A stretch of DNA of 64,000 nt, taken from NCBI GenBank assembly GCA_033782935.1, contig JAWQEG010000074.1, positions 372,001 through 436,000 on the forward strand. Direction: 5' to 3'. The position numbers and the translations under genes were made by a program. The notes beneath the pieces are model-generated. The model was not told where the DNA came from, ran no database searches, and worked only from the letters and a program-made list of their open reading frames with translations. Origin of the DNA: Petrolisthes cinctipes (Eukaryota > Arthropoda > Malacostraca > Decapoda > Porcellanidae). Of this stretch, positions 11,712 to 64,000 are shown in pieces; position 1 is the first letter of the stretch, and every line of letters begins with the position of its first letter.

Positions 11712-12480
11712 TTTACCGATCCAATCTTCTCTGACAACCATGATACTCTCGTCCCACACCATCCATGTCAAACTACTCCCTTCCACACCCTTGGCGATAC
11801 CAGCACCTCACACCCTTCCCTCCCCCTTCCTTTACACTTCTCATCCATTCCGGTGTAAACTACACCTCCCTCATCACACTCTCTCCTCCAGCCTCACACT
11901 CCTCCACTTCATCTCCTTTCAAGTGTGTCTCTCACTCCCATCACATCCACTCCTCCAGTCTTTAAACATTCAACTATCTCTCGCCCCTTTGTCCTATCAA
12001 CTATACCATTTACATTTATTTATTGTTATCACTCATACACCCACCTTTCCCCCCTCCCCTTACAGGGAAACCCCCGGAGACCCCCCCCCTCCCCTTGCCC
12101 GCAACCCTATCTGTCCACTTCCCCACTGGGGGGCCGCTGATGTCTGGCAAGGTCAATGCAGCGCTCATTCCCGGAGGGACACGGGCCGTCAGCATTAATA
12201 AAAAGGGTCACAAATGATGTTAAAAGATGTTAAAAACTTAAAAATATATATACAATTTTTAAAACCTATATTTGGAGGAAGCTAAATCTAATTCCCCACA
12301 CCGCCTCCCCCTTTAGCTTCACCTCCTGCTTTATAAAAAAAAAAGAAAAAAAAAGGAGCTGTTACCCGAGGTTGCCACGTGGAGCTGGGGTAAGGCTTAC
12401 CTACCCTTCCGGAGGAGGGGTAGGTCACCGAGGTGAATCCTTTCCCAATACTGACGGTTTAGCTTTACCGCAGCAGCATT
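11712..12480 (-). pseudogene. RTE-type LINE 5' UTR and start of endonuclease (relic)
   Basis: The minus strand has a GC-rich leader with CTACCCCTCCTCCGG and AGCTCCACGTGGCAACC near 12420-12370, then GERCIDLARHQRPP and EVDRVAGKGRG near 12190-12080, and EFDMDGVGREYHGCQRRL near 11790-11710. These precede the APVNERG motif beyond the solo LTR. Stops occur throughout. A 20-odd-base A/T run near 12340 is internal. Confidence 0.6.
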
Positions 12481-12514
12481 CACCTCATTGGTTACGATAC
12501 TGCCACTTCGCAAA
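12480..12514 (-). ncRNA. U4 snRNA-like 5' head on the RTE LINE (partial, not a functional gene)
   Basis: Read on the minus strand from 12514, the first ~35 nt contain TTTTGCGAAGTGGCAGTATC followed by GTAACCAATGAGGT. The canonical start of U4 snRNA is AGCTTTGCGCAGTGGCAGTA followed by TCGTAGCCAATGAGGTTTAT, so about 30 of the first 34 positions agree from U4 nucleotide 3 onward. Similarity stops after GAGGT. It lies exactly between the target duplication and the LINE leader. This is the geometry expected if the LINE reverse transcriptase switched template to U4 RNA at the end of cDNA synthesis, or if the family carries a U4-derived leader. There is no Sm site and no promoter. Confidence 0.6.
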
Positions 12515-12957
12515 ACATGAGCCGGAACCCAACAAAATGTAACTCTGCGGCCACGACGTCCCAGGAGGACAAGCCACTCGAGAATGGCCAACACCAAGGG
12601 ATGGGATGGGTTAAAATTGCCCATGGCCTGCAAGGCACTACAGGAATCACTAAAAATAGTAAAAGAAGGCTGAGGGAGAGTAAAAATATCTTGGAGGGCA
12701 TATAAAATGACCGAGAGCTCAGCAGTAAAAATGGACATAAACAAAAGGGAGCCTGCCGCCACGACAAAAGTCAGGAAAGACAGCCTCAAAACCAACTCCA
12801 GCATCAGACTTTGACCGATTGGTGTACACAGGGAGGGACTCCCTGTGAGAGGAGGCATGTTCTAAGAATAGGGAACGAGTCACTGGAGGAGGAAGAGATT
12901 CATTCTTGTCTGAAAAGAAAGTGCAGGTGTACACTTCTGGAAGAAGCCATGGAGCCA
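12515..12957 (-). pseudogene. I/Nimb RNase H N-terminal half (broken)
   Basis: The minus strand encodes APWLLPEV, then SLPVYTNRSKSDAGVGFE, FTAELSVILYALQDIFTLPQ, FTIFSDSCSALQAMGNF and RVTFCWVPAHV. These cover RNase H strands up to the last block. The first catalytic Asp is lost (YTDGSKSD in the 61-kb copy reads YTNRSKSD here), and the reading frame shifts several times. It ends at WVPAHV, precisely where the piece at 6249 resumes. The 5' end is truncated at about 12957. Confidence 0.8.
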
Positions 12958-16102: not shown

Positions 16103-16549
16103 TCAGCTGAATTTGCCATAATATGGGGCAGTAAGGTAGATATGATGAAGTACTGAATCCATCTTTATAGAACCCAATCCAATAACAGAAGACCAATTAT
16201 TTCTTGTACGTGGTAAGTGACATATTCCATCAATAGGTATGTTTGGTGTTGCAGCTAGTTTTAAATCGTGTAAATATTCTGACGAGACACTGTTTCGTTT
16301 TCTGGTGTCAATGGTCATATGTCTCCCACAGTATTGCCTGGTCTCTAGCGTGCCTTCATCATGCCAACGTCTTATCCAGCGGTACACAGTTGAGACGCTA
16401 GCACCAGTGTACCTGGAAATTCTCCTGGCTGACGTACCATTCAGCCACATCCATACCATCACTAGGCGATCTGCCATGGCGGTCCGGCTATGAGCATTCC
16501 TCACATCCATAATATTTCTGTCAAAACGGATGTCAAGATTTTTTTTCAT
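16103..16549 (-). pseudogene. Tc1-like transposase N-terminus (helix-turn-helix relic)
   Basis: The minus strand encodes about 148 residues. Residues 20-70 form a homeodomain-like helix-turn-helix: MADRLVMVWMWLNGTSARRI, then SRYTGASVSTVYRWIRRWHD and EGTLETRQYCGR. This is the paired-type DNA-binding region of Tc1/IS630-like transposases. The rest, including SEYLHDLKLAATPNIPIDGI, fits the linker, but no DDE catalytic domain follows. No terminal inverted repeats were found. It is a 5' relic. Confidence 0.7.
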
Positions 16550-25575: not shown

Positions 25576-26689
25576 AGCTGAATCACGTACCAATGGAACA
25601 GAGAATGAATCAGAGATTTATCTGGTTCATTTTCGTATGTCTGAGGTAAGATTGTAGTTCTCCATGAAGGTGGCAATACCCCGACTCAGATAGGGCGCAT
25701 GGTGGACGTGAACAGGAAAACTGATAACAAGTGGGTACGCCGTGAGGTGGAAACAGGATATTTGGCATCATTGCGTGCCTGACTGATTCCAGTAAGTAAT
25801 AGACATGAGGGGTGGGTGGGATAGGTATTAATAAAGTAAAAAGTATGTAATGAATTTTCATATCCAAGAGTAAATCTGTTCAGCTAGGTCGGATAAAAGA
25901 ATTTTTCATTTACAATAACGGCCATGGATGATAATGATTACTCCTGACTATGCCACGTAAAGAAATGTGACTCTTTAGGTCTCTCAATGATACTAACTCT
26001 ACAACATTGACGTCACGACCGTCCACGTATCGACATTGGTAGTGGGAACAGGGCTCTGTCGCTCATCCGTTTGACAGTAGTATGTAGTTCCGTAAGGAAT
26101 AAAATTGATTTATTTTTTACGGACAGACAGAGGTGATTGTGTCCGTTCACATGATGTTGACTATTTTCAATATGATATTTAAGTTGTTTTGACATGATTA
26201 TGAATAAATATATTGAACTACACCCTTCTAATATAATAATTTTGGAATATATTTTTTATATATGTGACTGTTTAATGGCAAATTATGAATGAATGTTATT
26301 GAAACTGAATTATGGCAGCACAGCATTATTGTCAACAAATAGACGATATCTCAGCTGCATGCAGCGGACGCTATAATACTCACACCCAACACATCCAACA
26401 CATCCAGTAGCTGCATCACGGGGTTTACGAAAAATGAAATCTGGTATTTGCAATAGCCATAAGAAGTAGTGTGGGTTTATGTGAGGAGGTAAGTAGACTA
26501 TACTAACTACATTCATAGTATGGAACATGCAATGGAAATAATTCACAGTTAAACCCAGCAATCGGCAGCAAATCCTTGTAATCATAGCCTATCTTGAACT
26601 TCCACGCTTGTTTACCAACACAAGAACGACGACGGACAGGATGGATCTCATATCTTCCGTTTTCCTCTGTCTCCTAAAAGTGACGTAAT
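25576..26689. other. No recognised feature
   Basis: Several short open frames, none with a recognisable domain. Confidence 0.4.
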
Positions 26690-30441: not shown

Positions 30442-30909
30442 TCACACTGTCAGAGGGACCAGACAATCATCACAGTAGGGAGGGGGTGCCCTTTCCATTA
30501 AGAACCCATGAGTCAATAGTGTGTGGCCAATGCGGAGACGTGCAAGAGCCATCTCCCACCAGCGAGACAGGCCGCTGTAGCTCCACATCGACACCACATT
30601 GTCCGGGGCCCAAAAAAATGTGACTCTGCGGCCACGACAACCCAGGAGGACAAGCTGCTCGAGAATGGCCAACACCAGGGGATAGGAAGAGTTAAAATTG
30701 CCCAAGGCCTGCAAGTCATTATAGGAATCACTAAAAATAGTAAAAGAAGGCTGCGGGAGAGTAAAAATAACTTGGAGGGCATATAAAATGGCCGAGAGCA
30801 CGGCAGTAAAAATGGACATGACAGAAGGGAGCCTGCCGCCATGACAAAAGTCAGGAAAGACAACTCCAAAACCAACTCCAGCATCAGACTTTGACCCATC
30901 AGTTAACAC
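30442..30909 (-). pseudogene. I/Nimb RNase H and C-terminal tail (relic)
   Basis: Residues read LTDGSKSDAGVGFGVVFPDF (first catalytic Asp kept), then MSIFTAVLSAILYALQVIF, where the catalytic Glu of AELSA has become Val, and TIFSDSYNDLQALGNF. The frame then jumps from WAPDNV to MWSYSGLSRWWEMALARLRI, deleting about 80 residues. The Glu loss alone should abolish RNase H activity. Confidence 0.8.
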
Positions 30910-31419: not shown

Positions 31420-33085
31420 ATCAGCCTCCCAGGACTATTAACAGGTTAAAAGCCTGTAGGCAAGAGACCTTAAGTGAACGTAAATGGGGAACCCAAGTCA
31501 AACGTTTGAAAAAAATAAGACCAAACAGCGAGTCACCTCGACACAACGTATCAGATGATAATACATGAATAAGTCCGGATTGGGGTGGCCGCCTCGGATG
31601 CGGCAGAAGTGCATAGCAACAGTCTTGGCAGGAGAGAAGCGAAACCCAAGAGAACCAGCCCAACGTGACACCCTGTCGAGGGCAAGCTGCATGCGCCACT
31701 CTGCCACTGACGTACGGGAAGCAGCAAACCAGACCGCCAGGAGGAAGGAGGGGAAGCGACCACACACATACATTGTTTTTCTGCTACTTAGACTCAATTA
31801 CCATTTAAAAGTATTCAGACACTACTCCCCTTTTCGTGTAATGCCCAGTTCACACTAGCCCATACTAACGGACTCCGTATCCGTACAGCTACGTCAAAAG
31901 AACATCAGTAACGTACATCGAGTTGGCTATACTGTCTGGAAGGAATGAGGCAATGGCATTAATTGCTACTGCAAACAATGTGACACTGAGGACGCTTCCC
32001 TGGGGGACGCCCTCCTCCTGTGCAATGAATGCTGAGAGGGCTGTACCAACCCTCACACTAAAACTGCGATCACTGAGAAACTCCTTAAGAAAGCATAGAA
32101 GGCGACTCCGCATTCCATATGCATTGAGTTGCTGCAGGATACCATATTGCCATTTAGTATCATAGGCTTTCTTTAAATCAAAGAATACAAAAGCCAAGTG
32201 TTGATGTTGTGCAAAAGTCTCACATGCAGCAGCTTCCAACCTGACCAGAGCGTCTGTTGACAGAAGATCACCCCGTTCCAAGAAGTATACCAGTCTGACC
32301 TTCACCATCTTCTCAAATAGTTTACAGAGACAGTTGGTCAAGGCAATTGGTCTGTAATTGAGGGCAACACTAGAGTCCTTGCCCGGCTTGGGGAAAGGAA
32401 GGATGGTAGCAACCCTCCACTCAGAAGGGAAGACACCCTCCAGCCAGATTCTGTTATTTAAAGCTAGAAGAAATTAGATCGCCTCCTCACCCAAGTGTCG
32501 CAACATTGCATATGGGATGTTGTCTGGCTAAGGAGAAGTGTCGCCGCAGGGAGAGAGAGAGAGAGCAGAGTGCAGGTCTCTCAGGGTGAATACATGGTTA
32601 TAACTTTCATTCTTGTTCCCCAAGAATCCAGGACAGTGCACTCCTGGGCTTCCAATTCATGATTGACACCCAGAGGTCGAGAGTCACTGCTGGAGACTCT
32701 AGCAAAAGCCTCTGCCATGGTGTTGGCAACTGTTAAACTATCCATGATCTTAATTCCATTGACCTTAAGGATAGGTGAAGAACTAGGAGAAAACTTCCCC
32801 GCCATCTTACAGACTCTCCTGAACACTTGGATGATTGGGGTTTTAGTATTAATTGAAGACACATAGGCCTTCCAAGATACATGTCTTGCATTGTCTAGCC
32901 AGAGCCCTTGCCTGTCGGAAGTCCTCTAAGAGAGTTGGGTCCCCACGATTGCGACGAAGGCGAAAGAAAGCAATGTGCTTCTCCCGCACAGCAGTGGTGC
33001 AGACTGGTGACCTCCAAGGGACAGGACGTTTGGGAGAGTGGTCAGAAGTTTTAGGGACTGAGTTAAGGGCAGCAGAGGGGAACAT
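31420..33085 (-). pseudogene. I/Nimb reverse transcriptase (broken)
   Basis: Pieces in order on the minus strand: KTPIIQVFRRVCKMAGKFSP, NCLCKLFEKMVKVRLVYFLE, LAFVFFDLKKAYDTKWQYGI (first palm Asp), EEGVPQGSVLSVTLFAVAIN, ANSMYV, then the inserted repeat, then LAVWFAASRTSVAEWRMQLA and TDLCRGD-type tail pieces. The insertion falls between V and the two aspartates of the YVDD active site. Numerous stops and indels exist as well. Confidence 0.8.
31741..31909 (+). repeat. Dispersed repeat family R, copy C, inserted in the YVDD motif
   Basis: Starts GAGGAAGGAGGGGAAGCGAC and ends AAAGAACATCAGTAACG; matches most of copy B in reverse. The surrounding LINE sequence (TTGTCAACGTACATCGATTT at 61949) shows the point of interruption. 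Target duplication not resolved. Confidence 0.7.
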
Positions 33086-33231: not shown

Positions 33232-33861
33232 TCACTGCCATATAAATCGGGCAACACTCTCCATGTAAAATCCAAGAGGACTATGAAAATGGTTCACATC
33301 TCCCATATTTAAAACTTCTAATCCCTCATCCACAATAAAAGATGCCAATAAAACACCCCTGGAGTTGACCGAACTGTCACCCCACAGAGGATGACAACCA
33401 TTATTATCACCGAATAAAATAAAGGGAGAGGGAAGGTCCCGTACAAGATGGTTGAGATCACCCCTCTCAACTGTAACACTGGGAGGAAGGTATAGACTGC
33501 ACACAGTGTAGGGGCGGTCCATAAAAACATTAACTGCAACAGCCTCGAGCGGAGTGTCAAGCTCCAGGCTCGTGCATGGAACATCACACAGAACTAGGAT
33601 GGCAGAGCCACCATTGTAACCCTGCCCATCAAGGGAATTAGAATATAATTTAGAGTATACTGGAGGACTGATAGGACTGTCAGGAATGTAGTCCCCAAGC
33701 ACTGTCTCTTGGAGAGAAAGATATGCAGGAGAACGTGCAGTTCCTCCTAAGATGCAATTCCACTGAAGAGGCAATTCTATTAAGGGACCTTGAACAGTGT
33801 TACTTCTGTACGGATTTTTGGGAAGCCTCACGGAGGGACTTCCCACTACCACCTTGACCAA
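33232..33861 (-). pseudogene. I/Nimb ORF2 endonuclease (broken)
   Basis: A 209-codon open stretch covers the start of ORF2: a WNC residue block, then LSLQETVLGDYIPDSP (catalytic Glu of QE), NGGSAILVLCDVPCTSLELD, RPYTVCSLYLPPSVTVERGD, SPFILFGDNNGCHPLWGDSS and SRGVLLASFIVDEGLEVLN. The catalytic GDFNG loop reads GDNNG here. The end is frameshifted before the SDH motif. Confidence 0.8.
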
Positions 33862-36893: not shown

Positions 36894-39791
36894 CACTGTT
36901 GCCAATTTGGCGCATTTCGCGCTAGATCTAGCGCATCAGCTTATAATCTGGTGGTCAAAATTATGATCTAGCGCCGAGCGCTTTATCTAGCGCATCGGAC
37001 TAAAAATCTGACGAATTATAGAGTTTTCTAGCTGTATTGTGCAAAACTAAAGAATACCTTTTATTCTATTTTAGTTTAGTATATTTCATTCTTGTCATGT
37101 TAATGGATATAATTTAAGTTACATAATTAGCTACTTGAGAAAAAGTTCTTACTTACTATACATCCGTCCCAAACATAATAATGAATGTTGCTGTAGCGCC
37201 GGTGGACACGTGTAAGACGTGTTGGTCAGGATCAGAATTACTCTGTCAGTGTATTTAGCAACTCGTCATTGTTGACGGTCAGTTGGTGTTAAACTACAGT
37301 TAAAACAGTCCAGTCTTTGAATGTGTCCTCTTTCTAAAGCTAAGACTCTGAATTAGGTGAAGTATATTGATAAGTATATATTCACAAAGATTATTACACT
37401 TTGTGCATAAAGCATCTAAACCTTTTTTTATCGTGAATTTCAGGAAAGATGAAGAAGTTAAAATGGGAAAATATAAGCAGTATAAACAAAAGTTCCGTAA
37501 AGAATGGCTACAGGAGGAAAAATGAAAAAAGTGGTTAGTAGAAGTGCCCACCGATTCCAGCAAAGGACGCTGCAACTACTGTAAGTGTGATATAAATGCC
37601 AAATACTCAGACCTAGTGAGGCACATCACCTCAAAAAAACATAAAGTGTCTGTACCAATAGTCACGTCTAATGCAGACATAAGATCACATGTTTCTAAGA
37701 ATTCGTGCGCGAAGACAGCTGCAAGTGAAGCTAGCATTCATTATTTCTAGGATCACACTGTGCAATTCGCAACTGTGACCATTTGGTTGATTTGTGTAAG
37801 TGTCATTTTTCTGAGATGGTTCGAAAATAAAGATGCACAGAACCAAGTGTACTGAAATAATAAACAATGTTTTAAGTGCTCAGTTTATTAATGATTTGGT
37901 CAGTGACATCGGCAATGGCAAATTTAGCCTACTCTTGGATGAATCAAATGATATTACAGTAAACAAGTTACTAGGGATTGCTGTAATATATTATAGTAAA
38001 CTCCATGGTAAAATAATTTCCACTTTTTTAAATCTTGTAATGCTGATGGAATTGTTAAAGCTGTAAAAGACGAGCTTGCTGCAAAAAAGTTAAATCTTAA
38101 CAATCTTGTTGCCATTGGAACGGATAATGCCAGTGTTATGGTTGGTATAAATAATGGTGTTTTCCAGAAACTGAAACAGGATGTACCTTCTCTAATACTG
38201 GTAAGATGTACTTGTCACTCTCTTCAGTTAGCTGTGTCCCATGCTTCATCAGAAACCCTACCAAGAAACCTGGAATTTCATATTTCTGAAACTTATAAGT
38301 GGTTTTCACTTTCTTCAGTTCGTCAGCTTTCTTACAAAACCTTGTATCAGACAATAAATGAAGGAAAAACTCCATTAAAGATTCCTAGTAACTGTAACAC
38401 TAGGTGGCTTTCAATAGAACCAGCTGTAGACAGGATTTTGGATCAGTGGCTTGAGTTGAAGACTCATTTTGAAATTGTTTGGTTAACAGAGAAATGTTAC
38501 ACAGCAGAACTTTTGTACGAAATGTACAATGATGAAGCTAATCATGCATACTTGCTTTTCTTACATCCAGTTTTAGATGACATACAAAGAGTGAACAAGT
38601 TATTTGAGTCAAGTGCTGCTGATCAAACAAAACTTTTTAATGACTTGACTCATCTCATTAAATCAGTTGCTTCAAAATTGATCTTGCCAACCTCGAGAGT
38701 AGATCCTCTTGTATCTAACATAGAAGAATACCTTGATCCAACCCTATATTTAGGGAATAGATTTGAAAGAAAGGTAAAAGAATTAAAAGATGCTGGTAAG
38801 ATCACAAATGAAAGGGAGAAGACACTTAGGTCAAGATGTCAAAGATTTCTGATGGAGGTTCTAAAACAATTGAAACAAAGATTGCCTGAAAACATCAATA
38901 TCTTGAAAATTCATCCCTACTTTCAGTTGAAAATGCTCTTAAACATGTAAAAGTTTTAGTGAGTAGTTTGATGGGGTATATGGGAGAACAAGAAAAAGTA
39001 ATTGATGCAGCAGAATTTCAGTTAACAAAAATTAACCAAATAGACTGGACCAATAAGACTAACACGGTCCAGTTTTGGGATGAGGTTTTCATATATAGTG
39101 ATGCTTCTGGTTCAAACCCTTTTCAAGAGGTGGCAGAATGTGCTATGAAAATTTTGATATTGCCACATTCCAATGCAGCAGTGGAGAGGATTTTTAGTCA
39201 GATGAATGTCACAAAATCAAAATTGAGGAACAAAATGGGAACAAAGTTAGTAAATTCACTTCTGCACATAAAGTATGGTTTAAGACGACACAACAAGTGT
39301 TGCAGAGACTATGTTCTTCCAGCAAAGACATTGGAAAAGATAGGTAGAATGGAATCCTACAGCACAGTAACTTCAAAGGCTGAAACTATTTGTATACCAG
39401 CACCTTCCTCTCCCCATGACCTCGAGGATGATGATGATAACGATAGTTTTGATATTGGAGACAGTGACAGTGAATAAATATTTTAGTTTAAAAAAGTTTA
39501 ATTACCTTTACTTTCACATGGCAAACTTTTTCCAATGTGATAGCCTATTTTTGTTCATCATTAATTTTGTTTTTTAATAAAGCTTTAGTAGTTTGCAAAG
39601 CTTCCTTTTCCCGTCATTTCATTATATTTTATATGAAAATGTACAGTATATGAAGCAAAATTAATAGCTATTAAAAGCCTGAGAATCTAGCTACTTTTCT
39701 AGAGCTACGGATCAAAATCTAGCGGAAATCTAGCGCTTACCAAATTGCGCAAATTCTAGCGCACAACATGCACTAAAAAGTGGCAACAGTG
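36894..39791 (+). mobile_element. hAT DNA transposon, complete ends, 8-bp target duplication
   Basis: The 2898-bp element starts CACTGTTGCCAATTTGGCGC and ends with the near-complement of that start (GTGGCAACAGTG). A perfect 8-bp duplication GGAAGAAG lies at 36886-36893 and 39792-39799. Subterminal regions are packed with the hexamer-like TCTAGCGC/GCGCTAGA (several copies within 120 bp of each end), probably transposase-binding sites. A degraded transposase occupies the middle. The duplication is perfect, so the insertion is either recent relative to its neighbours or by chance unmutated. Confidence 0.92.
37463..39477 (+). pseudogene. hAT transposase (DUF4371/dimerisation type), inactivated
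   Basis: Starts MGKYKQYKQKFRKEWLQEEK, then a TGA at 37523-37525, then KKWLVEVPTDSSKGRCNYCK with a BED-like zinc finger (CNYCKCDINA..HITSKKH). Frameshifts follow near 37750, 37830, 38045 and 38950. Recognisable blocks are TKCTEIINNVLS, KFSLLLDESNDITVNKLLGI (first catalytic Asp), NNLVAIGTDNASVMVGINNG (second Asp), LVRCTCHSLQLAVSHA, PSNCNTRWLS and, at the C-terminus, the dimerisation motif LPHSNAAVERIFSQMNVTKS, ending in an acidic tail (DLEDDDDNDSFDIGDSDSE). About 600 residues if repaired, the usual length for the family. Not functional. Confidence 0.88.
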
Positions 39792-46699: not shown

Positions 46700-47025
46700 A
46701 TTGTTTGAAAAGTGGCTGGACGGGTGTGGCTGGGTGGGGTGGCGTAACGTATCCCTCCACCGCTCATTCAAATGCCCTACCTGTAGCTACATTAACATCC
46801 TATATAATTATACACCTCAGTCATACATGCAACTCTAATTTTAACGACGTATATATAAATTCCTACCATTTTTCCACTTCATGATTCCGTATGTAAAACA
46901 CGCAGTCAACTGTCTTCAGTATAATTTATTCCTTGATTTATTATACAACGAGACGTATGGACAAGTCAACAGTTGAGACGCACGCACCTCGGCAGTTGGA
47001 ATTCTTCCCGCGAGAGCGCACTGGG
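46700..47025. other. No recognised feature
   Basis: Begins with ATTGTTTG (possible hAT target sequence). No coding frame recognised. Confidence 0.4.
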
Positions 47026-47197
47026 TTCTGTGTGTGGATATTTTTTAATTTGTACTGTATTCTTGAAAATACAGTACTAACTAGCTAACCATACAAGTGA
47101 AATATCTACTCCGCCTGGCTTAATTAGGCCCTACTCTCTATGCTACGAATACTATTAATTATTATGCCACGAGCAATCGACTCGTGACAGAGTGACA
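47026..47197 (+). repeat. LTR 3' end fragment (same family as the 10.7-kb solo LTR)
   Basis: GGGTTCTGTGTGTGGAT to CGACTCGTGACA parallels 11540-11706, including the shared GAAATATCTACT(G/C)CGCCTGG and TTAATTAGGCCCTACTCTCT. It ends in the canonical CA. The upstream part of the LTR is absent or too diverged. Confidence 0.7.
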
Positions 47198-47300
47198 TAG
47201 TAGTGATTGGTGGTGTGCTTTGGTCTGCAGAGAGAGGAGACTTGTGGTTACGTCCGTTGTACAGTTGCCTCCAAAAAATTCGAGACACTACCTGCTAGAC

Positions 47301-48088
47301 CAGTGTTATTCACTAATTTTTTCACGAGAGCCAAAAGTTCAGGACATATTCCGAGTGAGAGCCGCATAAGCCATAAACCACATGGATAAGCAGAAAAAAA
47401 TATATATAGAAACTAAATTATATATTTTTGTGGGTTTCCATAACCACAGATTTATAGAACAAGACCAGTAACAATATATTATTAATAAATTATACTGAAA
47501 TTCTTGACTTTAATAATACAAAAAAAAAAATCATTTATTGTTGAGATGACCGGAAATGAGCCAGCTGTTCTTTTACTTTCTCCATGCTGTACTTGTAATT
47601 TGTCACTGCTATTCTTGTTAGGATATCCAGATGTGCACTAGTGACTATTTCTCTGTTTCCTCTTCACAATATTCATAGTTGAAAATGTAGATTCACAAGT
47701 GTATGTGCTCACAAAATACCACATAAATTTTTGCACAGTCTGCTTCAGAGCTGGGTAGTCCATATCAGGGACAATATGCCAGAAATTTTCCTCACCTGAT
47801 TTTAGAACCGCCTTCAGAGTTTCATTTGCCTGCAGCTCGACAATCTCAGATTCCACAGAAAAGTAAAGAATTGCCAGGGCCACTAGGCCAATTCCCATTA
47901 GCAATTTTATTAAATGATACATCTGATACGGCATAGTGATACAATTTATATCTAATACTTTGGACTCTTTCTCTGATCACTGATGATTTTCTTTTTTCTC
48001 TCTCTCTCTTCTCTCTCTCTCTTGGGAGCCGCCAATCAGGTCATTGCGAGCCGCCATTGGCTCGCGAGCCGCACAATGAAGACCCCTG
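47301..48088. mobile_element. hAT derivative, 788 bp, with 8-bp target duplication
   Basis: Starts CAGTGTTATTCACT and ends with the complement of CAGGGGTCTTCATTGTGCGG. TGCTAGAC lies at 47293-47300 and 48089-48096. The target is the Tc1-like inverted repeat, whose intact version at 55670 reads straight through CTGCTAGACCGAGGAGG. Subterminal GAGCCGC repeats are present at both ends. A transposase fragment remains inside. Confidence 0.9.
47638..47934 (-). pseudogene. hAT transposase C-terminus (ZBED5/GTF2IRD2-like family)
   Basis: Encodes EENFWHIVPDMDYPALKQTV and QKFMWYFVSTYTCESTFSTM, then NIVKRKQRN. The STYTCESTFSTMN motif is the C-terminal dimerisation signature of this hAT group. About 60 preceding residues (LLMGIGLVALAILYFSVESE) are not family-like. 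Internal deletion removed the rest. Confidence 0.75.
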
Positions 48089-48096
48089 TGCTAGAC

Positions 48097-48405
48097 CAAG
48101 GAGGCGTCTGGCCACGGCAGAAGTTCGAGATCTTGCTGGTCTGCAAACCACCGCCTGACACTTGGCGGTATGGATGGAACAGTCGTCATGCATATAAATG
48201 ATGCACTCTGAGTACGGGAGAGCATACGCACGTATTGTTGGCAGCATCACCTCCTCAAGTATTTCTAGATACTTGTCAGCGGTGAATCTGCCCTCTATCT
48301 CAGCAAGCTCTGCCATAACGTACAGGTGAATCCATCCCAATAGATTACGAGTAACGTGGCCACTCCTAGCCACCGTGTAGATAGTCGCCTCATCAAATCT
48401 GGTGT
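48097..48405 (-). pseudogene. Tc1-like transposase, central catalytic domain
   Basis: Resumes at RFDEATIYTVARSGHVTRNL, then LAEIEGRFTADKYLEILEEV, LPTIRAYALPYSECIIYMHD and DCSIHTA, which carries the second catalytic Asp region (HDDCSIHTA, usually QDNCPIHTA). After a frameshift, VRRWFADQQDLELLPWPDAS follows. The final third with the last acidic residue is deleted and joins directly to the inverted repeat. Confidence 0.88.
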
Positions 48406-49654
48406 AAAAATGGAATATATGAATTTCAAGTAGGCATAATAAATCTCAAGTATTCTTCAGCATAATATACCCTAAAGATTTGTTATTTTGAAATCATACC
48501 TCTTTATCATGACACGGGCTTAGATGATTCATCATAATCATTATCATTACGATGGTATGTTGATAATGACAATGTTACTATTCTGAATGTAGTTATTTTA
48601 TTGGAAAACCCCACAGTCAGCCATGGATCAATTATTCATTTATACAAATCAGTACTGTCTATTTACACAATAATGATGGATGGAACTATGTCGACGTTCA
48701 AACTTAAGAAGCTTTATTATCAGCAATACTCCATTTCCCTTTATTCAAAGGGGTGGGGGCTTCAGGGTCAAGGAGAAAGAAAAATCTGGTTAGGAGGAGG
48801 TACAGAGATGCCCTGTCTCACTCTCATTCACTCTCCCAACCCCAAAGAAATCACGGTCCCCTCCCCTCCCTCCACAATGTCTTGCATTAACGGTAAGTAC
48901 CTCTTAATTTAGTCCTGGGACATAGTATGGTAAATGTTAACCAGTATGGAGTAAAGAAGCTGCAGAATGTGTTGTTCACTATAGATCAACAAGAGCAAAA
49001 TAAGAATTACAAGCCACCCAAAATACCACAAAAATCAAGACAGATTGAAATCAGAAACATACCTGCAAAACTTGAAACACTTGGTGGCATAAACAAGGGT
49101 TGAAACATTAAAACCCAATTGTTTGCTTATCATACATAGTGTTTCAGATTTACTGTATTAATTGAAAATGGCTGATAAAATTACGACAAAAGATTTGTCA
49201 AAACTTTTGCTATTCAGTTATTAGTGACAAAACGTAGAATTTTAGGAATCTTAGAAATTAGGAATTTTATTTAGGAATCTTATACTTGTATAATATGGAG
49301 GTTGGTAGATAAATAAACATATAATACTCTCACACACACCATGAAAATGCATCATTGCCCCACTGAACGAAAGTTGGTGGTATTCCAAATCCAGTGACAC
49401 GTGTAACGTTATGCAAAACTTAATCCCATTGCTCAGTGACCACAGTTACTTTAAGCTACCAAATACTATCCAGTGGGTTATTCTGAACTCACTAACTTTT
49501 GAAACAACTACCACCACTGCAAGCTCCACACAGCATTCCTGTCACCACCACACACCAACAATCCTATTACAACAACACATATCTGTGTGGAATAAAGTTA
49601 AGCTAAACATCATGTACTGTATATGTCTTTTGCATAACACTGGTCAACTCACTG
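48406..49654. mobile_element. 1.25-kb insert of unknown type in the Tc1-like gene
   Basis: On the minus strand it interrupts the transposase between codons for NNT and RFDEA. The 5-mer ACACC lies at both borders, which favours an insertion with a 5-bp duplication. Yet the donor side reads CCA then GTGAGTTG and the acceptor side TTTTTACACCAG, so an intron is formally possible. Inside, I recognise no gene; a C-rich block lies at 48810-48880. Confidence 0.55.
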
Positions 49655-49870
49655 GGTGTTGTTCCTTCTTCAGCAATGAACCTTGCCGTGAGTTGTATAC
49701 GATATTGTCTTCTCGTCCCCAGAAGTCCAGCCCTTTATCTACATTTTGTTACGCAAACTGTCGTCGCAATACCTTGTGCCTCGCCGTCAACTTGTCTTTT
49801 TGACTGGAGAAGCGATGGTGAATACCACTGTAATGAAGGCGTCTCCTTACGGTTGTTATCGAGATACGTA
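49655..49870 (-). pseudogene. Tc1-like transposase, second DNA-binding helix-turn-helix and start of catalytic domain
   Basis: From the TA onward the minus strand reads ISITTVRRRLHYSGIHHRFS, SQKDKLTARHKVLRRQFA, a TAA, then QNVDKGLDFWG. A frameshift leads to DEKTISYTTHGKVHC (catalytic Asp of SDEKT), a stop and RRNNT. The first residue after the junction completes the codon from 53924, so the gene was continuous before the insertion. Confidence 0.88.
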
Positions 49871-50225
49871 CTAAGGATTTCAGAGACATTGCAAGCTCGT
49901 TTTTTTTCAGAATAACTCTGTAACGAACACTCGTACCAGTACGAGCTTTCGCTAGAGTTTAGTACACACAGTGTTCTAATTTATAAGAGTATCATGAATT
50001 ACTAATTGTTAATTATAAAGACACTTGTGCCTATACCAAGAAGCATAAACTGGATTTGCCAGACATGGAAACGAACACAAATAGTGACATGTTGTCTGTG
50101 ACGTATGAAAAGCTCCACCTACACTCTCCCTCCCCCACTTCCACCCCCCTCTTCTCTCCGTCTCCTTAATTTCCTCACCTGCCCCCCCCCCCCACGTCTC
50201 TCTCTTTTTTTTTTTTTCTCTCTCT

Positions 50226-50897
50226 CTCTCACACACGTGTAGAAAGATAGAGTCTGAATAAATGAGTGAGTTATGTATTACTGTGAGTGCAAGCACGTAT
50301 TCTGGAAATATCTTTGTAATGGGCACCTTCCCGGTCTGCCCTCCCTCTCCTTGACTCTCGCCAAGTAAAATACAATATTTTTTTCTAGATAAATGTATGA
50401 ATATTCGATAAAGGCATGCATAATGTGTTAGAAGTACTGCATTTCGTTATTATTGTGTTTCATATCTTAATGTATCCACACATGAGAGTAGGGTGGGGTA
50501 GTAGGAGAATAACCACCATGATTGAGGGGAAAACGACTGTTCAGTTGTTATACTTGTGTTTAGTTACTTTTCTTCTTCATCCTGATGTATACTCAGTGCG
50601 TCAGTCGTTTACTTGTAGCACGAAGGTAAAGAAGGGAGGGCCACCTCGGTAGACAAATGTCGGCATGGTTGCAGGAATGCGCTTGTCACGCATCTTTTCA
50701 ACTTTTTAAAGAATGAGAAAGCAGCCAATCGCATGCAGATTGGTTTGAATAGGTACCGTATGTGGTTATGGTTATTTGTTTCTTCCTATTGGCCAATCAT
50801 TGGAATCACAGCTTTAATTATAGCGAGGTATATATTTTTAAGCAGGAAATGTATATTTGAATTGACAATGTTTATCACACACACACACACACACAGA

Positions 50898-50900
<3 letters not shown>
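50226..50900. other. No recognised gene inside the 4.05-kb element
   Basis: Includes CT- and CA-rich simple sequence and short open frames without similarity. Confidence 0.4.

Positions 50901-50939
<39 letters not shown>
50901..50939. repeat. (AT)n microsatellite at left edge of MITE
   Basis: About 39 bp of AT preceded by a CA repeat. Confidence 0.95.
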
Positions 50940-51721
<782 letters not shown>

Positions 51722-51734
51722 TTTACCTCTCCTC

Positions 51735-52920
51735 CATACAGGCCATACCACCGTGTGGCAGCGGCCTTAAGGATGAAGGTCGGGACGGTGCATTCAATTG
51801 TGTCTCGCAGGACCAGGCCACGCCGTGGCACACCGCCAACACCTCCAGCACAGCCCGTCCTCGACAGTTTCACTGTAGGTGCCATACGCCGGCACATTCA
51901 TACCAAGTTTGCTGCCAAGCAGGTTTTCACTCTCGCGTCCCTGACAGGGAACCTGAAGGAAGCAAGCATCATCCCTGAAAGTACCTCGAAGATTTCGCTG
52001 TGGCGCCTCCTACACAAAATGGGATTTCAGTATAAGACTGCACAACGTAAAATGTATGTGGGAAAGTAGTCCATGGACGTCTTGTGCCACAGAATACACG
52101 CCCTGCGGACACTTCAAAGACACCGGGAAGAGGACAGGATGGTAGTATACGTTGACGAGACGTGGTTTACCACCAGGATGAGTCACAACATGGAGTGGGT
52201 GGACAGCACGCAGCCTAACACCAGTGCCACTTACAGCCGTCAGGTGCCGCCAGGAGATGGGGAACGATTCGTGGTAGTAGCAGCTGGCACAGCCGATGGC
52301 TTCGTTGAGGGCTCCTTCCTCTGTTTCGCTGCTAATAATACGACCGGCGACTACCATGGGGAGATGAATGGAGTGCTCTTCCTCCGGTGGCTAACGACAC
52401 AGCTCCTGTCGATCCTGGAGCAGCCAGCATACTGACTGAGGGGAGTCGCTGTCCCACTACTGCCACCAGGAAATCTCATCTCATCGAATGGTTGGAGCAC
52501 CGACAGATTTCCTTCCCGCAGCATGCTACAAGGCCTGAGCTCCTCAACATTTGCCGTCAAAACAGGCCAGAGCCTCAGCACAAGGTGGATGATATTCGCG
52601 AATGGTGCCACGAGATCGTCCGCCTGCCACCCGCTCATCCTGAGCTCAATGCAATTCAGCAGGTGTGGGGGCACATGTAGCGACACGTGCGCTCCTCACT
52701 CCAACTCTTCACCCGAGCTGACCTGCAGGCCAGGACGGAGGAGGCCAGACTCTCTGTCACTGATGAGGTGTGGGCAGGGGCGGTTCGTCGATCACGAGCT
52801 TTTGAGGACGAATACCGTTCAACAGACAATGTGCATGAAAGTGTTGATCCTGTCATTATTACCCTTGACAGTGACAGTGACGATGAAGTTGACTTGATAT
52901 TAAGTAGTGACGAAGATTAA
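51735..52920 (+). pseudogene. IS630/Tc1-like DDE transposase (inactivated)
   Basis: The frame enters from the microsatellite with [20 protein letters not shown] (end of a helix-turn-helix), then [20 protein letters not shown] and [20 protein letters not shown], a TAG at 52067-52069, [20 protein letters not shown] (first Asp), [20 protein letters not shown] and [16 protein letters not shown]. At about 52432 LEQPA jumps frame to [20 protein letters not shown], deleting the stretch that should hold the second Asp. RLPPAHPELNAIQQVWGHM carries Gln where Glu is expected, then a TAG. The acidic C-terminus ends DSDSDDEVDLILSSDED. The normal N-terminus is absent. Confidence 0.85.
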
Positions 52921-53556
52921 AATTGATGATTATAATTCATGTTATACATTACACATTCATGTGATGTAAAGCTTTCAGTTGTATTTCTTTTCCTTTGAAT
53001 ATCCATCATCCGTGCACATACTCAATACTCATATAAGTAGTGATGTATTGTATATTGGTGTATAATTTCACGTTGAACAAATACAACATAATTGTCATAT
53101 ATATAAATAATACTATTTGACAAACAAGTATGTTTTATGGCCCGTGAGGGTAAAATCAACTGGTGACTGGTGGGGGGGAGCCAAAAAAGGCTAAGCCTCT
53201 GTTTTAAGCAGTACCTCACACAAGTTACCTTACGCAACCCTTTGATGTTGCTATATTTTACTCTCAACCCTTCCCTATCATTACAACCACCCTATACCAT
53301 GGCTTTTATTACATTTCGTTGATAAAGGATCCCTCTCAGTACATACCATAAGATAGCGCCACAAAAACGTGCGCCACCATACAACCAAACCATTACGTTA
53401 CCGACAGTATTAGTGGTTATTATTGACACAGTGTCCTACTCCAGCCTTTATTTAATGTGTGACTATCAGCAACAAAGTCATGAAACAAAGCCACGACCAA
53501 TTATTAATGTATACCTTATTTTCATAGGTATGATGCATGCGTCACTCCCCGTAATT
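52921..53556. other. No recognised gene inside the 4.05-kb element
   Basis: AT-rich 3' flank of the transposase followed by a G-rich stretch; no coding frame recognised. Confidence 0.45.
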
Positions 53557-53923
53557 GGAGAGAGAGGGAGAGGGAGAGAGACGTGAGGGGTGGGGGGGCT
53601 GGGTGAGGGCAGGTGAGGAAATTAAGGAGACGGAGAGAAGAGGGGGGTGGAAGTGGAGGAGGAGGGAGAGTGTAGGTGGAGCTTTTCATACGTCACAGAC
53701 AACACGTCACTAGTTGTGTTCGTTTCCATGTCTGGCAAATCTAGTTTATGCTTCTTGGTATAGGCACAAGTGTCTTTATAATTTACAATTAGTGATTCAT
53801 GATACTCTTATAAATTAGGACACTGTGTGTACTAAACTCTAGCGAAAGCTCGTACTGGTACGAGTGTTCGTTACAGAGTTATTCTGAAAAAACGAGCTTG
53901 CAATGTCTCTGAAATCCTTAGTA

Positions 53924-54206
53924 GGTGTAGATGTTCTTTCACTGCCTCTGCATTCGTGAAGTGATCTTGCTCAACTAGTTCGATAATCTCTCTCTATTGT
54001 TCAGCAGTGGTAGTTTTGGGGTGACCCGGTCTAGGTCTGTCACCAAGATACCCTTCCTCCTCCCACCTGTTTAACCACCGATTAACAGTGGAGCGAAATA
54101 TTCCGAGGTCTATGGATATTTGTGTAGGATGTATACCACTCATTGTCATGCCAATAATCACGCCCCTATTGGTTGCCTTCTCAACTCGACGACGATTAAT
54201 CTTCAC
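53924..54206 (-). pseudogene. Tc1-like transposase N-terminus (DNA-binding domain)
   Basis: Starts MKINRRRVEKATNRGVIIGM, then TMSGIHPTQISIDLGIFRST and VNRWLNRWEEEGYLGDRPRP, a paired-like helix-turn-helix followed by the GRPKTTT-like linker (GHPKTTTAEQ). A TAG/stop-like interruption follows AEQ, then REIIELVEQDHF and EAVKEHLHL up to the TA insertion site of the 4.05-kb element. In a live element it would bind the inverted repeats. Confidence 0.88.
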
Positions 54207-55650
54207 GGCGTGCTACTTCGCTGGAGCTGGCTGGTGACTAACCGGTCACTGACGTCTGAGCAATGAACCTAGTTCCATTACACCTGGGTTTACATTCTCT
54301 TTGGTTCATCATGTGTCTGTCATACACATATTAAGATGGTTCACCCTAGCCAGTGAATATGAACAAACGCAAGGGAACAGGCGCTCTTTCGCTGTATGTG
54401 GACCTTTGTTTCTGGCTAAATATGTTGTTGGATGGATGACAGTGGCAGACCATTGCAGATAAAGGTTTACATTATCAGTGCTGAAATGCATCACAACTGG
54501 TCACGTGACTATGGTGCGTGAAATCGATATTTAAAGATGAGATGATTGATAGGTCTCTACAGTATAACATAACTGATATGACTTGAGCAGTAGAAAAGAT
54601 TAACAACATTATCATGAACAGCTTGGAGGGTGTCAGGTTGTAAATATATTGCCAGGTACTGGTTTATCAAACACATATTTCCCAACAACTTATTGTATCA
54701 TCTGTAAGTTAATTTCAGAAAAGTATTCTTCAGCTACATCTACTTGATGTTGGATAACCCTACCCCTAAGAAATCATTCAAGTGCAGCTACAAACTTTTC
54801 ACAACAGTTCGAATTAGCAACTATCTAAAACAAATTTACTTATTATCACCCCGCAAGTGGTATTCGGCTAACAACTTCCAGTATCCATGACCTTTCAATA
54901 CTGGGATGACATAAATGTGTGGACATTTATGCCAACCCAGCATTACTCTGTAAACATGGATACTGGCTCATGGTAATAGCAAAGAACATATCGGTATGCA
55001 AGGCTAGTATCTAAACAGCACGTTTCCCTCTCTCTCTCTCTCTCCTTCCCTCTTTTTCTCCCTACCTCTATTCCTATCCCTCCCTTCCTGCCTCCACACC
55101 TCTCCTGCCCTCCCTCACTATATTCCTCTCCATCTCCCTCCCTTAATAAACAACAAATAGTTATATTTTGATATACCATATAATAAGTTACGCGACTCAT
55201 CCAACACTATAATCTATTAAAACTACGAACTGCGGAAGCCATGTCATGTTGAGGCATTTAAGAAAAGAAAGGTTGAGTGTGGTGGACATGGTGTGTAACT
55301 GAATATCACATTCCACGATAGAAATGGCACAATTTAAAGAAATGGAATAAAAATTCGGTTTAAACAGCAACATACGATAATTAAAACGTGATATGTATAT
55401 GGGTATCCTCACATAAAATAGTATAGGTCATCATCTGTCACTTTTACACTGTGTTATGGTTTACGTCTAAATTTTATTATGGAGCTGACCATGCATATTG
55501 GTGTGACATCATCTACAGCATTATAGGCTCTCGGTAAATAAAACTTCTTTACATAAATATATTTTTGTTAAGAGGAATTTAACTGGCGAAGCAAACCAGG
55601 AACTGAAGCTTCACAGCCAGGCGTCATCGTTGCAAAACAGGAACATTTTC
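54207..55650. other. Unassigned sequence in the Tc1-like leader
   Basis: Lies between the transposase start and the right inverted repeat. It contains a C/T-rich run at 55020-55150. Longer than expected for a Tc1 leader, so another decayed insertion is likely, but I could not define it. Confidence 0.4.
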
Positions 55651-55845
55651 GCTAGACAGACGCCTCCTCGGTCTAGCAGGTAGTGTCTCGAAATTTTTGG
55701 AGGCAATTGTACATACCTTGTCTAGTTAAATACTATTCTGTAATTTCTCCTTGCACATATTTCAGTGTGTGAACTCATCCAAGTCAATATAATTATAATT
55801 AAGTGAGTAAAGTAAATAAGGAATTTCTGCCAGTATTAAAGTGAA

Positions 55846-59948: not shown

Positions 59949-62900
59949 TTTGATTTATTTATTGATGCCATTAGGCATCTGGCGGCGCAACAACAATGGT
60001 CATATACCGCCCAACATAAAAAGGTCATCCACATCATTAATAAAATATGTACAAATATTAAATAATTTTCACTACCTCGAAAGGGAGAAGCAGCATGCAT
60101 AAAACCCACGTCTTCTAAAAGATCATATATTAATGAAATAACCTACTTAAGTTAGATATAATATAAAAGAATTGAAATATTAACGAAAAAAACATTAAAC
60201 TTTAACTACCTAAAGATTAATAGCCATAAATACAATAAAATTCACAATTTGTGGAGAAGGCCAGCCTCCTCCACATAGAAGAGGGTGTTCCCTCCCACAC
60301 TACAAGCCTCCTCCCCGAGCATCTGGGAGAGACTATAAGAACCGTCACCCTTCCGGTACTCGTAGAGGTGCCTACGACGAAGGTCCCCAAGGCTGGGACA
60401 CTCGACAATAAGATGCCGTACTGTCAAAGGGACCAGACAATCATCACAGTAGGGAGGGTGAGCCCTCTCCATTAAAAAGCCATGAGTCAATAATGTGTGG
60501 CCAATGCGGAGACGGACAAGAGCCGTCTCCCACCGGCGGGACAGGCCACTGTAGCTCCACAAACCAAGGCGCTGGCGGATGTCGCGGAGCTTGTTAGCCC
60601 CGATGGCGTCCCATCTGTCCTGCCAGCAGGAACGAACGGTAGCATCTATGTAGGGTCGAAGGTCCACTGCAGGAACAGGATGACGCCTGGCAGGAGGCCG
60701 GGAATTGGAGACCACAGCCTTAGCCAGGGCGTCAGCCCCCTCCTTCCCATCAACACCCACATGGGCCGGGACCCAACAAAAAGTGACTTTGCGGCCACGA
60801 CGACCCAGGAGGACAAGCCACTCAAGAATGGCCAACACCAGGGGATGGGAAGAGTTAAAATTGCACAAGGCCTGCAAGGCACTACAGGAATCGCTAAAAA
60901 TAGTAAACGAAGGCTGAGGGAGAGTAAAAATCACTTGGAGGGCATATAAAATGGCCGAGAGCTCCGCAGTAAAAATGGACATGACAGAAGGGAGCCTCTC
61001 TCCACAGGAAAAGTCAGGAAAGACAACTCCAAAGCCAACTCCAGCATCAGACTTTGACCCATCAGTGTACACAGGGAGGGACTCCCTGTGAGGGAAGGCA
61101 TGTTCTAAAAAGAGGGAACGAGCCACTGGAGGAGTAAGAGATTCCTTCTTGTCTGTAAAGCAGGTGCAGGGGAAAACTTCTGGAAGAAGCCATGGAGCCA
61201 CCCTGGGACCCCTCACAGGACAAATCTGGAAGTCATCTATGCCCATCTCCTCCATAGCCTTCCTGACCCGGAAGCCAAAGGGCCATGGTGCACGAGAATG
61301 TAAAAGGTAGTACTGAGACATGATATCAGATGACACCGCCAAGCAAGGTAGGGAGTCAGGAAGTCGATGTAATTGATGCCAACAACGAACCATCAAGGAC
61401 TGGCGACAGAGATCAAATGGTGGCTTATTAGCGTCCACCAGGAGACTGGGGATTGGGGACGACCTGAAGGCTCCGGTCGCCAGACGTACTCAAGCATGAT
61501 GAACCGGGTCTAAAACTCTGAGACGGGCATCGGTGGCAGAAGAGTACACCTCACACCCATAGTCGAGTTTTGACCTAATAAGAACATGGTATAGGTGGAG
61601 GAGGGTGGCCCGATCAGCCCCCCAGGATATATGGCTCAGGACCCTCAACAGGTTAAGAGCCTTGAGGCAAGAGACCTTAAGTGTGCGTAAGTGGGGAGCC
61701 CAAGTCAAACGTTTGTCAAAAAGAAGACCCAAAAAGCGAGTCTCCTCGACACATCGTATCCGATGACCATACATAAATAAGTCCGGATCCGGGTGGACGC
61801 CTCGGATGCGGCAGAAGTGCATAGCAACTGTCTTGGAAGGGGAAATCGAAACCCATGAGAACCAGTCCAACGTGACACCCTGTCAAGGGCAAGCTGCATG
61901 CGCCGCTCCGCCACTGACATACGGGAAGCAGCAAACCAGACTGCTAGGTTGTCAACGTACATCGATTTAGCTATACCGTCTGGAAGGGATGAGGCAATGG
62001 CATTAATTGCTCCTGCAAACAATGTGACACTGAGGACGCTTCCCTGGGGGATGCCCTCCTCCTGTGCAACAGATGCTGAGTGGGTTGTACCAACCCTCAC
62101 AGAAAAACTGCGACCACTGAGAAACTCCTTAAGAAAGCGTGAAAGGCGACCCCGCAGGCCATATAAATGGAGTTGCTGCAGGATGCCATATTGACATGTA
62201 GTGTCATAGGCTTTCTCTAAATCAAAAAATACACAGAGAAGGTGTTGATGTCGTGCAAAGGCCTCACATGCAGCAGCTTCCAATCTGACCAGAGCATCTG
62301 TAGTGGAACGGTGTTTGCGAAAGCCAGACTGGGACAGAGACAGAAAATAACCCCGTTCCAAGAAGTATACCAGTCTGACATTCACCATCTTTCCAAATAG
62401 TTTACAGAGACAGGAGGTCAAGGCAATTGGTCGATAATTGAGGGCAACACCAGAGTCCTTGCCCGGCTTGAGAAAAGGAAGGATGGTAGCAACCCTCCAC
62501 CCAGAAGGGAAGACACTCTCCAGCCAGATTCTGTTATATAAAGCTAAAAGAAATGAGATCGCCTCTTCACCCAAGTGTCGTAACATTGCATATGGGATGT
62601 TGTCTGGCCCAGGAGAAGTGTCGCCGCAGAGAGAGAGAGCAGAATGCAGGTCTCTCGGGGTGAATATATGGTTATAAATTTCATTCACGTTCCCTGAGAA
62701 ATCCAGGACAGTACGCTCCTTGGCTCTTAACTCATGCCTGACAGCCAGAGGTCGAAAGTCTCGGCTGGAGACCTTTACAAAAGCCTCCGCCATGGTATTG
62801 GCCACTGTCAAACCATCCATGATCTTAATTCCATTGACCTTAAGTACAGGTGTAAAACTAGGAGAAAACTTCCCCGCCATCTTACGGACTCTTCTGAACA

Positions 62901-64000
62901 CTTGGGTGAGTGGGGTTTTAGTATTAATTGAAGACACATAGGCCTTCCAAGATGCATGTCGTGCCTCTTTTAAAACTCGTCTAGCCCGAGCCCTTGCCCG
63001 TCGGAAGTCCTCTAAAAGAGTTGGGTCCCTACGATTGCGACAAAGGTGAGAAAAAGCAGCGCGCTTCTCCCGCACAGCAGTGGTGCAGACTGATGACCAC
63101 CAACAAGGGACAGGACGTTTGGGAAAATAGCCAGAAGTTCTAGGGATAGAGTTTAGAGCAGCAGAGTGGAGCATATCAGTGAAATATGTTACAGCCTTGT
63201 CAGAGCTACCGAAATCGGCTACAGAAGAGACCGAAGAAGTTAGCTCTCTAAAAATCTGCCAGTCAACCTTCTCTAATTTCCACCTAGGAAGACGAGACTG
63301 TGGTTCGTACCTGTTACCTTCTAAAAGTATAGGGAAATGGTCACTGCCATATAAGCCAGGCAACACTCTCCAATTAAAATCCAACAGAGCACTGGGTGAG
63401 CAAAGGGAAATGTCAATGGCGGTAAAAGTCCCAGTAGGGCTATTAAAATGTGTCACATCTCCCGTATTTAAAACCCCTAATCCCTCATCCTCAATAAAAG
63501 AAGCCAATAAAACACCCCTGGGGTTGACCGAACTGTCACCCCACAGAGGATGACGACCATTAAAATCACCCAATAAAATAAAGGGAGATGGAAGGTCCCG
63601 TACAAGATGGTTGAGATCACCCCTCTCAACTGTAACACTGGGAGGAAGGTATAGACTGCACACAGTGTACGGGCGGTCCATAAAATCCTTAACTGCAACA
63701 GCCTGGAGCGGAGTGTCAAACTCCAGGCTCGTGCATGGAATATCTCAACGAACTAGGATGGCAGAGCCACCATGATGACCCTGCCCTTCAAATGAATTGG
63801 AATAAAATGCTGAGTATGCTGGAGGACTGGCAGGAATGTAGTCCCCAAGCATTGTCTCTTGGAGAGAAACACATGCAGGAGAGAAGCTAGAGAGAAGAAC
63901 GCGCAGTTCTTCCCAAGAAGCACGCAAGCCACGGCAATTCCACTGAAGGACCTTGAACGGTGTTACTTTAGTACTGATTTTTGGGAAGCTCCACGGAGGT
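59949..64000 (-). mobile_element. I/Nimb-type LINE, best copy (runs off the window)
   Basis: The 3' tail starts at about 59949 (ATTTATTTATTGATGCC..), followed on the minus strand by the 3' UTR and a nearly complete ORF2 from beyond 63990 to 60242. The element order is endonuclease, reverse transcriptase, RNase H, Cys-rich tail, diagnostic of the I group of LINEs with RNase H. ORF1 and the 5' UTR would lie beyond base 64000. It has only a few disabling lesions and is the best template for aligning the other copies. Confidence 0.88.
60242..64000 (-). pseudogene. I/Nimb ORF2: endonuclease, reverse transcriptase, RNase H
   Basis: Endonuclease: SLQETMLGDYIPASP, SPFILLGDFNGRHPLWGDSS, LPGLYGSDHFPILLEG (catalytic Glu, GDFN, SDH all present). 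Reverse transcriptase: HLLCVFFDLEKAYDTTCQYG, AQEEGIPQGSVLSVTLFAGA, KSMYVDNLAVWFA, where YVDD has become YVDN. RNase H: SLPVYTDGSKSDAGVGFG, FTAELSAILYALQ, TIFSDSCSALQAL, WVPAHVGVDGKEGADALAKA. C-terminus: PPYCDDCLVPLTVRHLIVEC. Lesions are a TGA after SAILVR (about 63743), a frameshift near 61855, and a TGA after DPVHHA (about 61488). The protein primes cDNA synthesis on nicked chromosomal DNA. Start lies outside the window. Confidence 0.9.

Follow-up and report, generated by a model that had tools for sequence, protein, structure and literature searches.

Nested transposons in the porcelain crab Petrolisthes cinctipes and a probable intron in a Tc1-like transposase

The DNA analyzed here, a 64,000-nucleotide stretch from the porcelain crab Petrolisthes cinctipes (hereafter the window, whose coordinates are used throughout), contains a genuine nest of transposons at 47262-55709 that is shallower than first described. 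The outermost layer is a dead Tc1-like element. It has received two insertions, a hAT derivative and a 4051-bp Sailor-like element, and the latter contains a palindromic repeat resembling a miniature inverted-repeat transposable element (MITE). The deepest chain therefore runs from the outer element through the inner Sailor-like element to the palindrome and has three layers, with the hAT derivative as a second insertion in layer two. A first-pass annotation of the locus had proposed a four-level nest; this was not borne out, because the 1254-bp interruption of the outer transposase behaves as an intron. From sequence comparison, that interruption is most probably a spliceosomal intron. We hold the account as a whole (a two-exon outer Tc1-like element, a hAT derivative, an intron-bearing Sailor-like element, a palindrome and a 1254-bp intron) to be highly probable.

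Architecture of the nest

The outer element is flanked by TA on both sides (47260-47261 and 55710-55711), as a target duplication. Its 55-bp inverted ends, at 47262 and 55709, had been assigned to a single element, and they do belong together: once the hAT derivative and one copy of its target-site duplication (TSD) are excised by script, they differ at 4 of 55 positions (3 of 53). In the uncut window, BLAST aligned the ends over 44 bp at 95.5%, TA and flank included. The transposase lies in separate minus-strand pieces, as had been noted, and tblastn shows this too. The layers and the parts of the outer element are as follows (P numbers denote proteins from our searches).

47262-55709, minus strand: outer Tc1-like element (DD35E-type relatives), dead, including all insertions; inverted ends, TA on both sides, transposase pieces
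53924-54212, minus strand: outer exon 1, 5' part, with a paired-like helix-turn-helix (HTH), 5' limit approximate; HTH_32, HTH_23, tblastn
49653-49868, minus strand: outer exon 1, 3' part (RISITTVRRRL...RRNNT), broken by stops and a frameshift; tblastn
48399-49652, minus strand: proposed outer intron, 1254 bp, phase 2 (the earlier "1.25-kb insert"); GTGAGT...TTTTTACACCAG, relatives interrupted at the same residue
48109-48398, minus strand: outer exon 2 (RFDEATI...LELLPWP), abutting the left terminal repeat at its inner edge (48097-48110); tblastn, alignment with P0027 and P0001
54213-55655, minus strand: outer 5' region, 1.4 kb, without recognized content; no match to Tc1 relatives by tblastn, short inverted repeats only
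47301-48088, minus strand: hAT derivative; TSD TGCTAGAC at 47293-47300 and 48089-48096, weak remnant of a hAT dimerization domain
49871-53921, plus strand: inner Sailor-like element (DD83E relatives), 4051 bp, in opposite orientation to the outer element; TSD TA, terminal inverted repeats (TIRs) of about 330-360 bp
50940-51567, no strand assigned: palindromic repeat (MITE-like) between (TA)n tracts in the inner intron; BLAST, end matching

Excision of 4051 bp together with one TA gives the in-frame join EHLHLRISITTV, so that the claimed rejoining of the coding sequence at TA stands. The inner element interrupts the outer DNA-binding domain, and the Pfam domain HTH_Tnp_Tc3_2 is restored across the join: the right piece alone scored 29.7 bits (cut-off 31.5), whereas the joined protein scored 38.3 bits with a match spanning the join. 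The outer transposase thus combines a paired-like HTH (HTH_32, HTH_23) with HTH_Tnp_Tc3_2, the latter above cut-off only when joined. Had the two half-genes come from different Tc1 subfamilies, the first-pass annotation would have been wrong on this point; a partial check did not refute it, as P0001, P0002 and P0038 ranked in the first eight for each of the N-terminal, middle and C-terminal parts when 39 relatives of full length were compared.

Outer exon 2 passes from ...LELLPWP directly into the terminal repeat, and the C-terminus is gone together with the third catalytic residue. The DDE triad of this copy is accordingly incomplete, with the first two acidic positions readable and the third, which relatives keep, lost. 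The copy is dead, and its family placement has to draw on other features. Among 23 relatives examined, of which 22 were measurable, the spacing between the second Asp and the Glu is 35 residues in 17, 36 in four and 43 in one gene model.

A hAT derivative does sit in the left terminal repeat, with the 8-bp duplication that had been claimed for it: TGCTAGAC is exact on both sides, and short inverted ends are present. On the minus strand, PF05699 (Dimer_Tnp_hAT) matched with E=0.0026 and 17.9 bits, below the gathering score of 21.4. Elsewhere in the window, a second hAT-like transposase piece at 38959-39474 has a Dimer_Tnp_hAT domain above cut-off.

The order of insertion, which the locus had been thought to record in full, can be read in part. 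The outer element preceded both the hAT derivative and the 4051-bp element, and the 4051-bp element preceded the palindrome; the hAT derivative and the 4051-bp element are unordered in time. The history would then run as follows. A cut-and-paste element of Tc1-like kind, its transposase gene in two exons, landed at a genomic TA. Two insertions followed, in either order: a hAT derivative entered the terminal repeat on the left, and a TA in exon 1 received a Sailor-like DD83E element with a proposed intron of its own. The copy is dead, and its transposase C-terminus was lost as far as the terminal repeat, before or after those insertions. The palindromic MITE-like repeat would have come to sit in the intron of the Sailor-like element. 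The 1.25-kb interruption of the catalytic domain would be the outer element's own spliceosomal intron, which working relatives would splice from their RNA.

A join of unrelated elements side by side by faulty assembly has in its favor that 75% of this genome consists of repeats (PMC10849366). We consider it extremely improbable: target duplications mark all three junctions (outer, hAT and inner), each of which rejoins correctly, and the assembly was built from HiFi reads, according to the same source. The GC content of the window, 39.70%, is close to the 39.63% published for the 1.49-Gb genome (PMC10849366).

The 1.4-kb 5' region (54213-55655) may represent an intron of the 5' untranslated region or a further old insertion. 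Within it, at 54878-54970, we saw by eye a short inverted-repeat stretch, CCAGTATCCATG...CATGGATACTGG, with an internal hairpin; an Rfam scan of the window, this hairpin included, gave no hit at gathering score. Further copies of the outer family were sought in the window by tblastn, which gave nothing beyond distant HTH matches at 16322-16498 and, less strongly, at 25645-25764. In the viral_contigs and genome_contigs collections, exact-pattern scans for the outer ends gave no match, and profile scans for the outer transposase gave 78 and 28 pattern matches, respectively, none of them confirmed. To the left of the element, 47023-47188 and 11541-11705 represent a common repeat (87% identity over 168 bp), which stops short of the insertion site and thus provides no empty site.

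An intron-like interruption shared with relatives

On the minus strand the 1254-bp piece reads AACACCCA/GTGAGT...TTTTTACACCAG/ATTTGATG, in phase 2 within an Arg codon, and its removal gives ...RRNNT-Q-FDEATI in frame. By a hand-written consensus score, the donor and the acceptor each fall within the best 0.2% of window positions. Its length is ordinary, as is that of the 989-bp intron proposed for the inner element (below), because the mean intron length in the P. cinctipes annotation is 1,362 bp (PMC10849366).

To P0040 we aligned 139 proteins, comprising all those listed by two protein searches, one with 36 hits and one represented by its best 120 of 5085. At least three unrelated leading residues, together with a start after reference residue 20, were found in 50 of the 139, and 18 of these 50 switch from unrelated to homologous sequence at residues 170-172 (P0040 numbering), which is the boundary in the window. 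After removal of the window's own gene model (P0021) and a near-duplicate (P0084), and addition of P0033 (boundary 167), 17 relatives carry unrelated sequence abutting the very residue of the window intron. Just before the boundary, eight of these have a residue encoded only by codons with C or T in third position, one (P0030) has a residue encoded only by codons with A or G there, and in eight the residue is ambiguous; C/T endings fit pyrimidine-AG acceptors, and an AG followed by a single exon base would account for the boundary Arg (Ser in P0042). In two P. cinctipes gene models, P0022 and P0026, earlier or unrelated sequence is joined exactly at the boundary. P0027, which besides the locus's own P0021 has the highest identity over length, starts past the boundary and is uninformative. 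We infer that the 1254-bp piece is spliced out in working relatives.

Several observations weigh against this. The count of boundary-bearing relatives is enriched, since the search behind the best 120 of 5085 used a query set of 11 proteins, eight of which (six raw contigs and two gene models) already had the boundary; the less biased 36-hit search contained six raw-contig boundary cases. Many relatives are uninterrupted at the boundary; P0001, which has the best E-value, is one of them, and P0040, a P. cinctipes gene model, is another, although the latter may have been spliced. None of the 36 hits stops at the donor side of the intron, with exon 1 only. At the locus itself, the spliced codon now specifies Gln where relatives have Arg, the donor fits poorly on its exon side, with CCA in place of CAG, and both edges of the piece carry the 5-bp direct repeat ACACC in the manner of a target duplication.

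The first-pass annotation took the piece for a transposon inserted in the catalytic domain. The interruption is there, at 1254 bp, but its standing as an additional layer of the nest is not upheld, since the same residue is interrupted in 17 relatives. The ACACC repeat, seen by eye, speaks for an insertion, as does a 28-bp inverted repeat of 71% identity (49391-49418 and 49628-49655) that reaches the donor edge. Against these stand the canonical in-frame splice signals and the relatives interrupted at the identical residue. Moreover, no terminal inverted repeat was reported across the whole piece, BLAST found no second copy inside the window, and no protein remnant was seen by eye in six frames, no further search having been made. 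The ACACC repeat is not ancestral either, because an ancestral ACACC-AG acceptor would predict Thr before the boundary and none of the 17 relatives has Thr there. We therefore think an insertion unlikely. Two specific candidates were tried and rejected: a hAT or other insertion spanning the 1254 bp (no matching far end, a duplication of at most 5 bp, ACACC not retained in relatives), and a MITE at the donor edge (71% over 28 bp, with no flanking duplication by eye).

Less likely again is that the intron was born, in the present or an ancestral copy, from a DNA transposon that is spliced out, in the manner of Introners. The direct repeat and the donor-edge inverted repeat would suit such an origin, as would the variable presence of the intron within the family, for which several changes are needed on the tree described below; PMC9860276 documents Introners that are consistent with DNA transposition, in copepods among others, and gives them as commoner in aquatic species. 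However, ACACC is not retained in relatives, and the inverted repeat is at about chance level for 1.27 kb by a rough estimate that was not simulated.

A second position of interruption emerged from the 36-hit search. In 17 of the 36 hits (P0003-P0005, P0007-P0019 and P0024) the sequence turns unrelated right after F-M-Q/H, the next residue being Val in 16 and Ala in one; all 17 pass T-R-Y, the motif around the first boundary, unbroken or begin before it. This is the pattern that GT (or GC) donors would be predicted to leave if a phase-0 intron immediately preceded the second catalytic Asp. No protein with both interruptions was seen, though the exon between them would have about 70 residues, below the length limits of both protein searches, and doubly interrupted copies would have escaped. 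On a tree of 64 rows and 70 columns, too few columns to resolve the history, the three interruption states require 11 changes, against a mean of 28.9 after shuffling, and the starred branches force at least four for the interruption between T and R. The window exon clusters with P0025, P0029 and P0030, all interrupted between T and R (support 90/84, not starred).

It is conceivable, if improbable, that this Tc1-like family repeatedly gains introns at a few fixed sites (between T and R of T-R-Y/F-D, and between Q and D of M-Q-D), possibly through DNA transposons that are spliced out. If so, an insertion would become an intron rather than kill its host element, and the locus would be a snapshot of one harmless insert turned intron next to one gene-breaking insert.

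The inner element, its palindrome and a false gene model

The inner element has TA at 49869-49870 and 53922-53923 as its TSD and ends in CTAAGG.... Among the best 120 of 136 matches, the proteins nearest to its transposase are Pcinc_006945 (87% over 72%) and one from Macrobrachium rosenbergii (76% over 91%). All three catalytic motifs were found in 35 of the 120 listed relatives, and the spacing between the second Asp and the Glu is 83 residues in 34 of these and 79 in one. The copy itself is dead: it has stops, its second Asp is deleted and its Glu is replaced. Its coding parts, and the one exon of a gene model that lies antisense to them, are as follows.

50658-50752, plus strand: inner exon 1, conserved part (CRHGCRNALVTHLFNFLKNEKAANRMQIGLN-R), 5' limit approximate; tblastn with the P0179 N-terminus (E=8e-8) and P0146 (E=4e-7)
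50753-51741, plus strand: proposed inner intron, 989 bp, phase 2 in an Arg codon; GTACCG...CCTCTCCTCCATACAG
51742-52920, plus strand: inner exon 2, degenerate, with stops, the second catalytic Asp deleted and the third catalytic Glu replaced; six-frame translation
51748-51885, minus strand: exon 1 of gene model Pcinc_001274, antisense to the inner transposase; tblastn with P0021, the remainder at 48044-48403

We propose that the inner transposase, too, has an intron of its own, at 50753-51741. Joining 50752 to 51742 gives ...LN-R-PY, comparable to ...ISLN-R-PYDRVAHTM in P0224. Of the 120 listed relatives, 28 showed the motif around this Arg and 92 did not. Nine of the 28 have contiguous exon-1 residues and two more are contiguous by eye; the remaining 17 have unrelated residues before the same Arg, and in 15 of these the last unrelated residue is H, Y, F or C, all encoded by codons with C or T in third position. 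A point against the proposal is the weak donor, GTACCG, which falls only within the best 1.1% of window positions.

The palindromic repeat that had been described inside the 4.05-kb element is present at 50940-51567. Its 22-bp ends match exactly (two matches, against none expected in 100 shuffles), and it has no second copy within the window. It presumably arrived by transposition; its setting in (TA)n would mask any target duplication. TA/TG tracts also occur inside the inner intron. Over 289 bp, with the adjoining (TA)n counted in, the arms of the palindrome are 88.9% identical (11% divergence), and those of the inner element 95.4% identical over 328 bp (4.6% divergence), figures that are rough guides to age since arms may not have been identical at insertion.

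P0021, retrieved with the outer transposase as query and recorded as "hypothetical protein Pcinc_001274 [Petrolisthes cinctipes]", matched by tblastn at 100% in 48044-48403 and at 97.8% in 51748-51885, and is on that account the gene model of the present locus. It is a prediction chimera of the antisense inner element, outer exon 2 and the hAT derivative, and is not to be read as a real transposase gene; a gene predictor has here turned nested elements into a false gene. Its exon join coincides with the proposed outer acceptor.

Outside the nest, the minus strand at 60242-63681 holds a non-long-terminal-repeat (non-LTR) retrotransposon with endonuclease, reverse transcriptase and RNase H, and similar fragments were seen by eye at 5686-6063, 12397-12858, 30442-30909, 31889-32341 and 33232-33861.

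Relation to known elements

Nested transposons, the younger within the older, are a general pattern in repeat-rich genomes. This locus conforms to it, with younger elements in older ones and sequences that rejoin at target duplications, and shows no fundamental difference; each element of the nest belongs to a known kind. The segment at 47301-48088 shares with the hAT superfamily its 8-bp duplication, CAG...CTG ends and weak Dimer_Tnp_hAT remnant, but it is short and its coding remnant is under cut-off.

The inner element resembles the DD82E/Sailor group in the 83-residue spacing of its relatives and in element and transposase lengths, which are within the range given in PMC8533490; that source reports Sailor elements from DD78E to DD111E, with DD83E frequent and Arthropoda among the hosts. 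It differs in having a TA rather than the predominant TATA duplication and CT ends rather than the usual GT or CC, as described there, and in the proposed intron of its transposase. Because the TATA duplication and the GT or CC ends are absent, we call it Sailor-like and not Sailor.

The outer element shares a TA target, a paired-like HTH and HTH_Tnp_Tc3_2 with the Tc1/mariner DD34E/DD35E families (for example DD35E/TR, named in PMC8533490), and its placement near DD35E is by the spacing in its relatives only. In having a Tc1-like transposase gene with a probable spliceosomal intron it resembles TLEWI, mollusk Tc1-like elements for which three to five spliceosomal introns are given (Puzakov et al. 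2020, via PMC10379824); we found one in the coding part of the outer element. Introns in crab Tc1-like elements were not described in the open-access papers that we searched. An intron within a transposon is easily mistaken for a further transposon insertion. Intron-bearing Tc1-like elements being already known, the more interesting part is the alternative intron positions within one family: two such positions in a Tc1-like family, with one in a Sailor-like family, would make a usable system for studying intron gain and retention in transposons.

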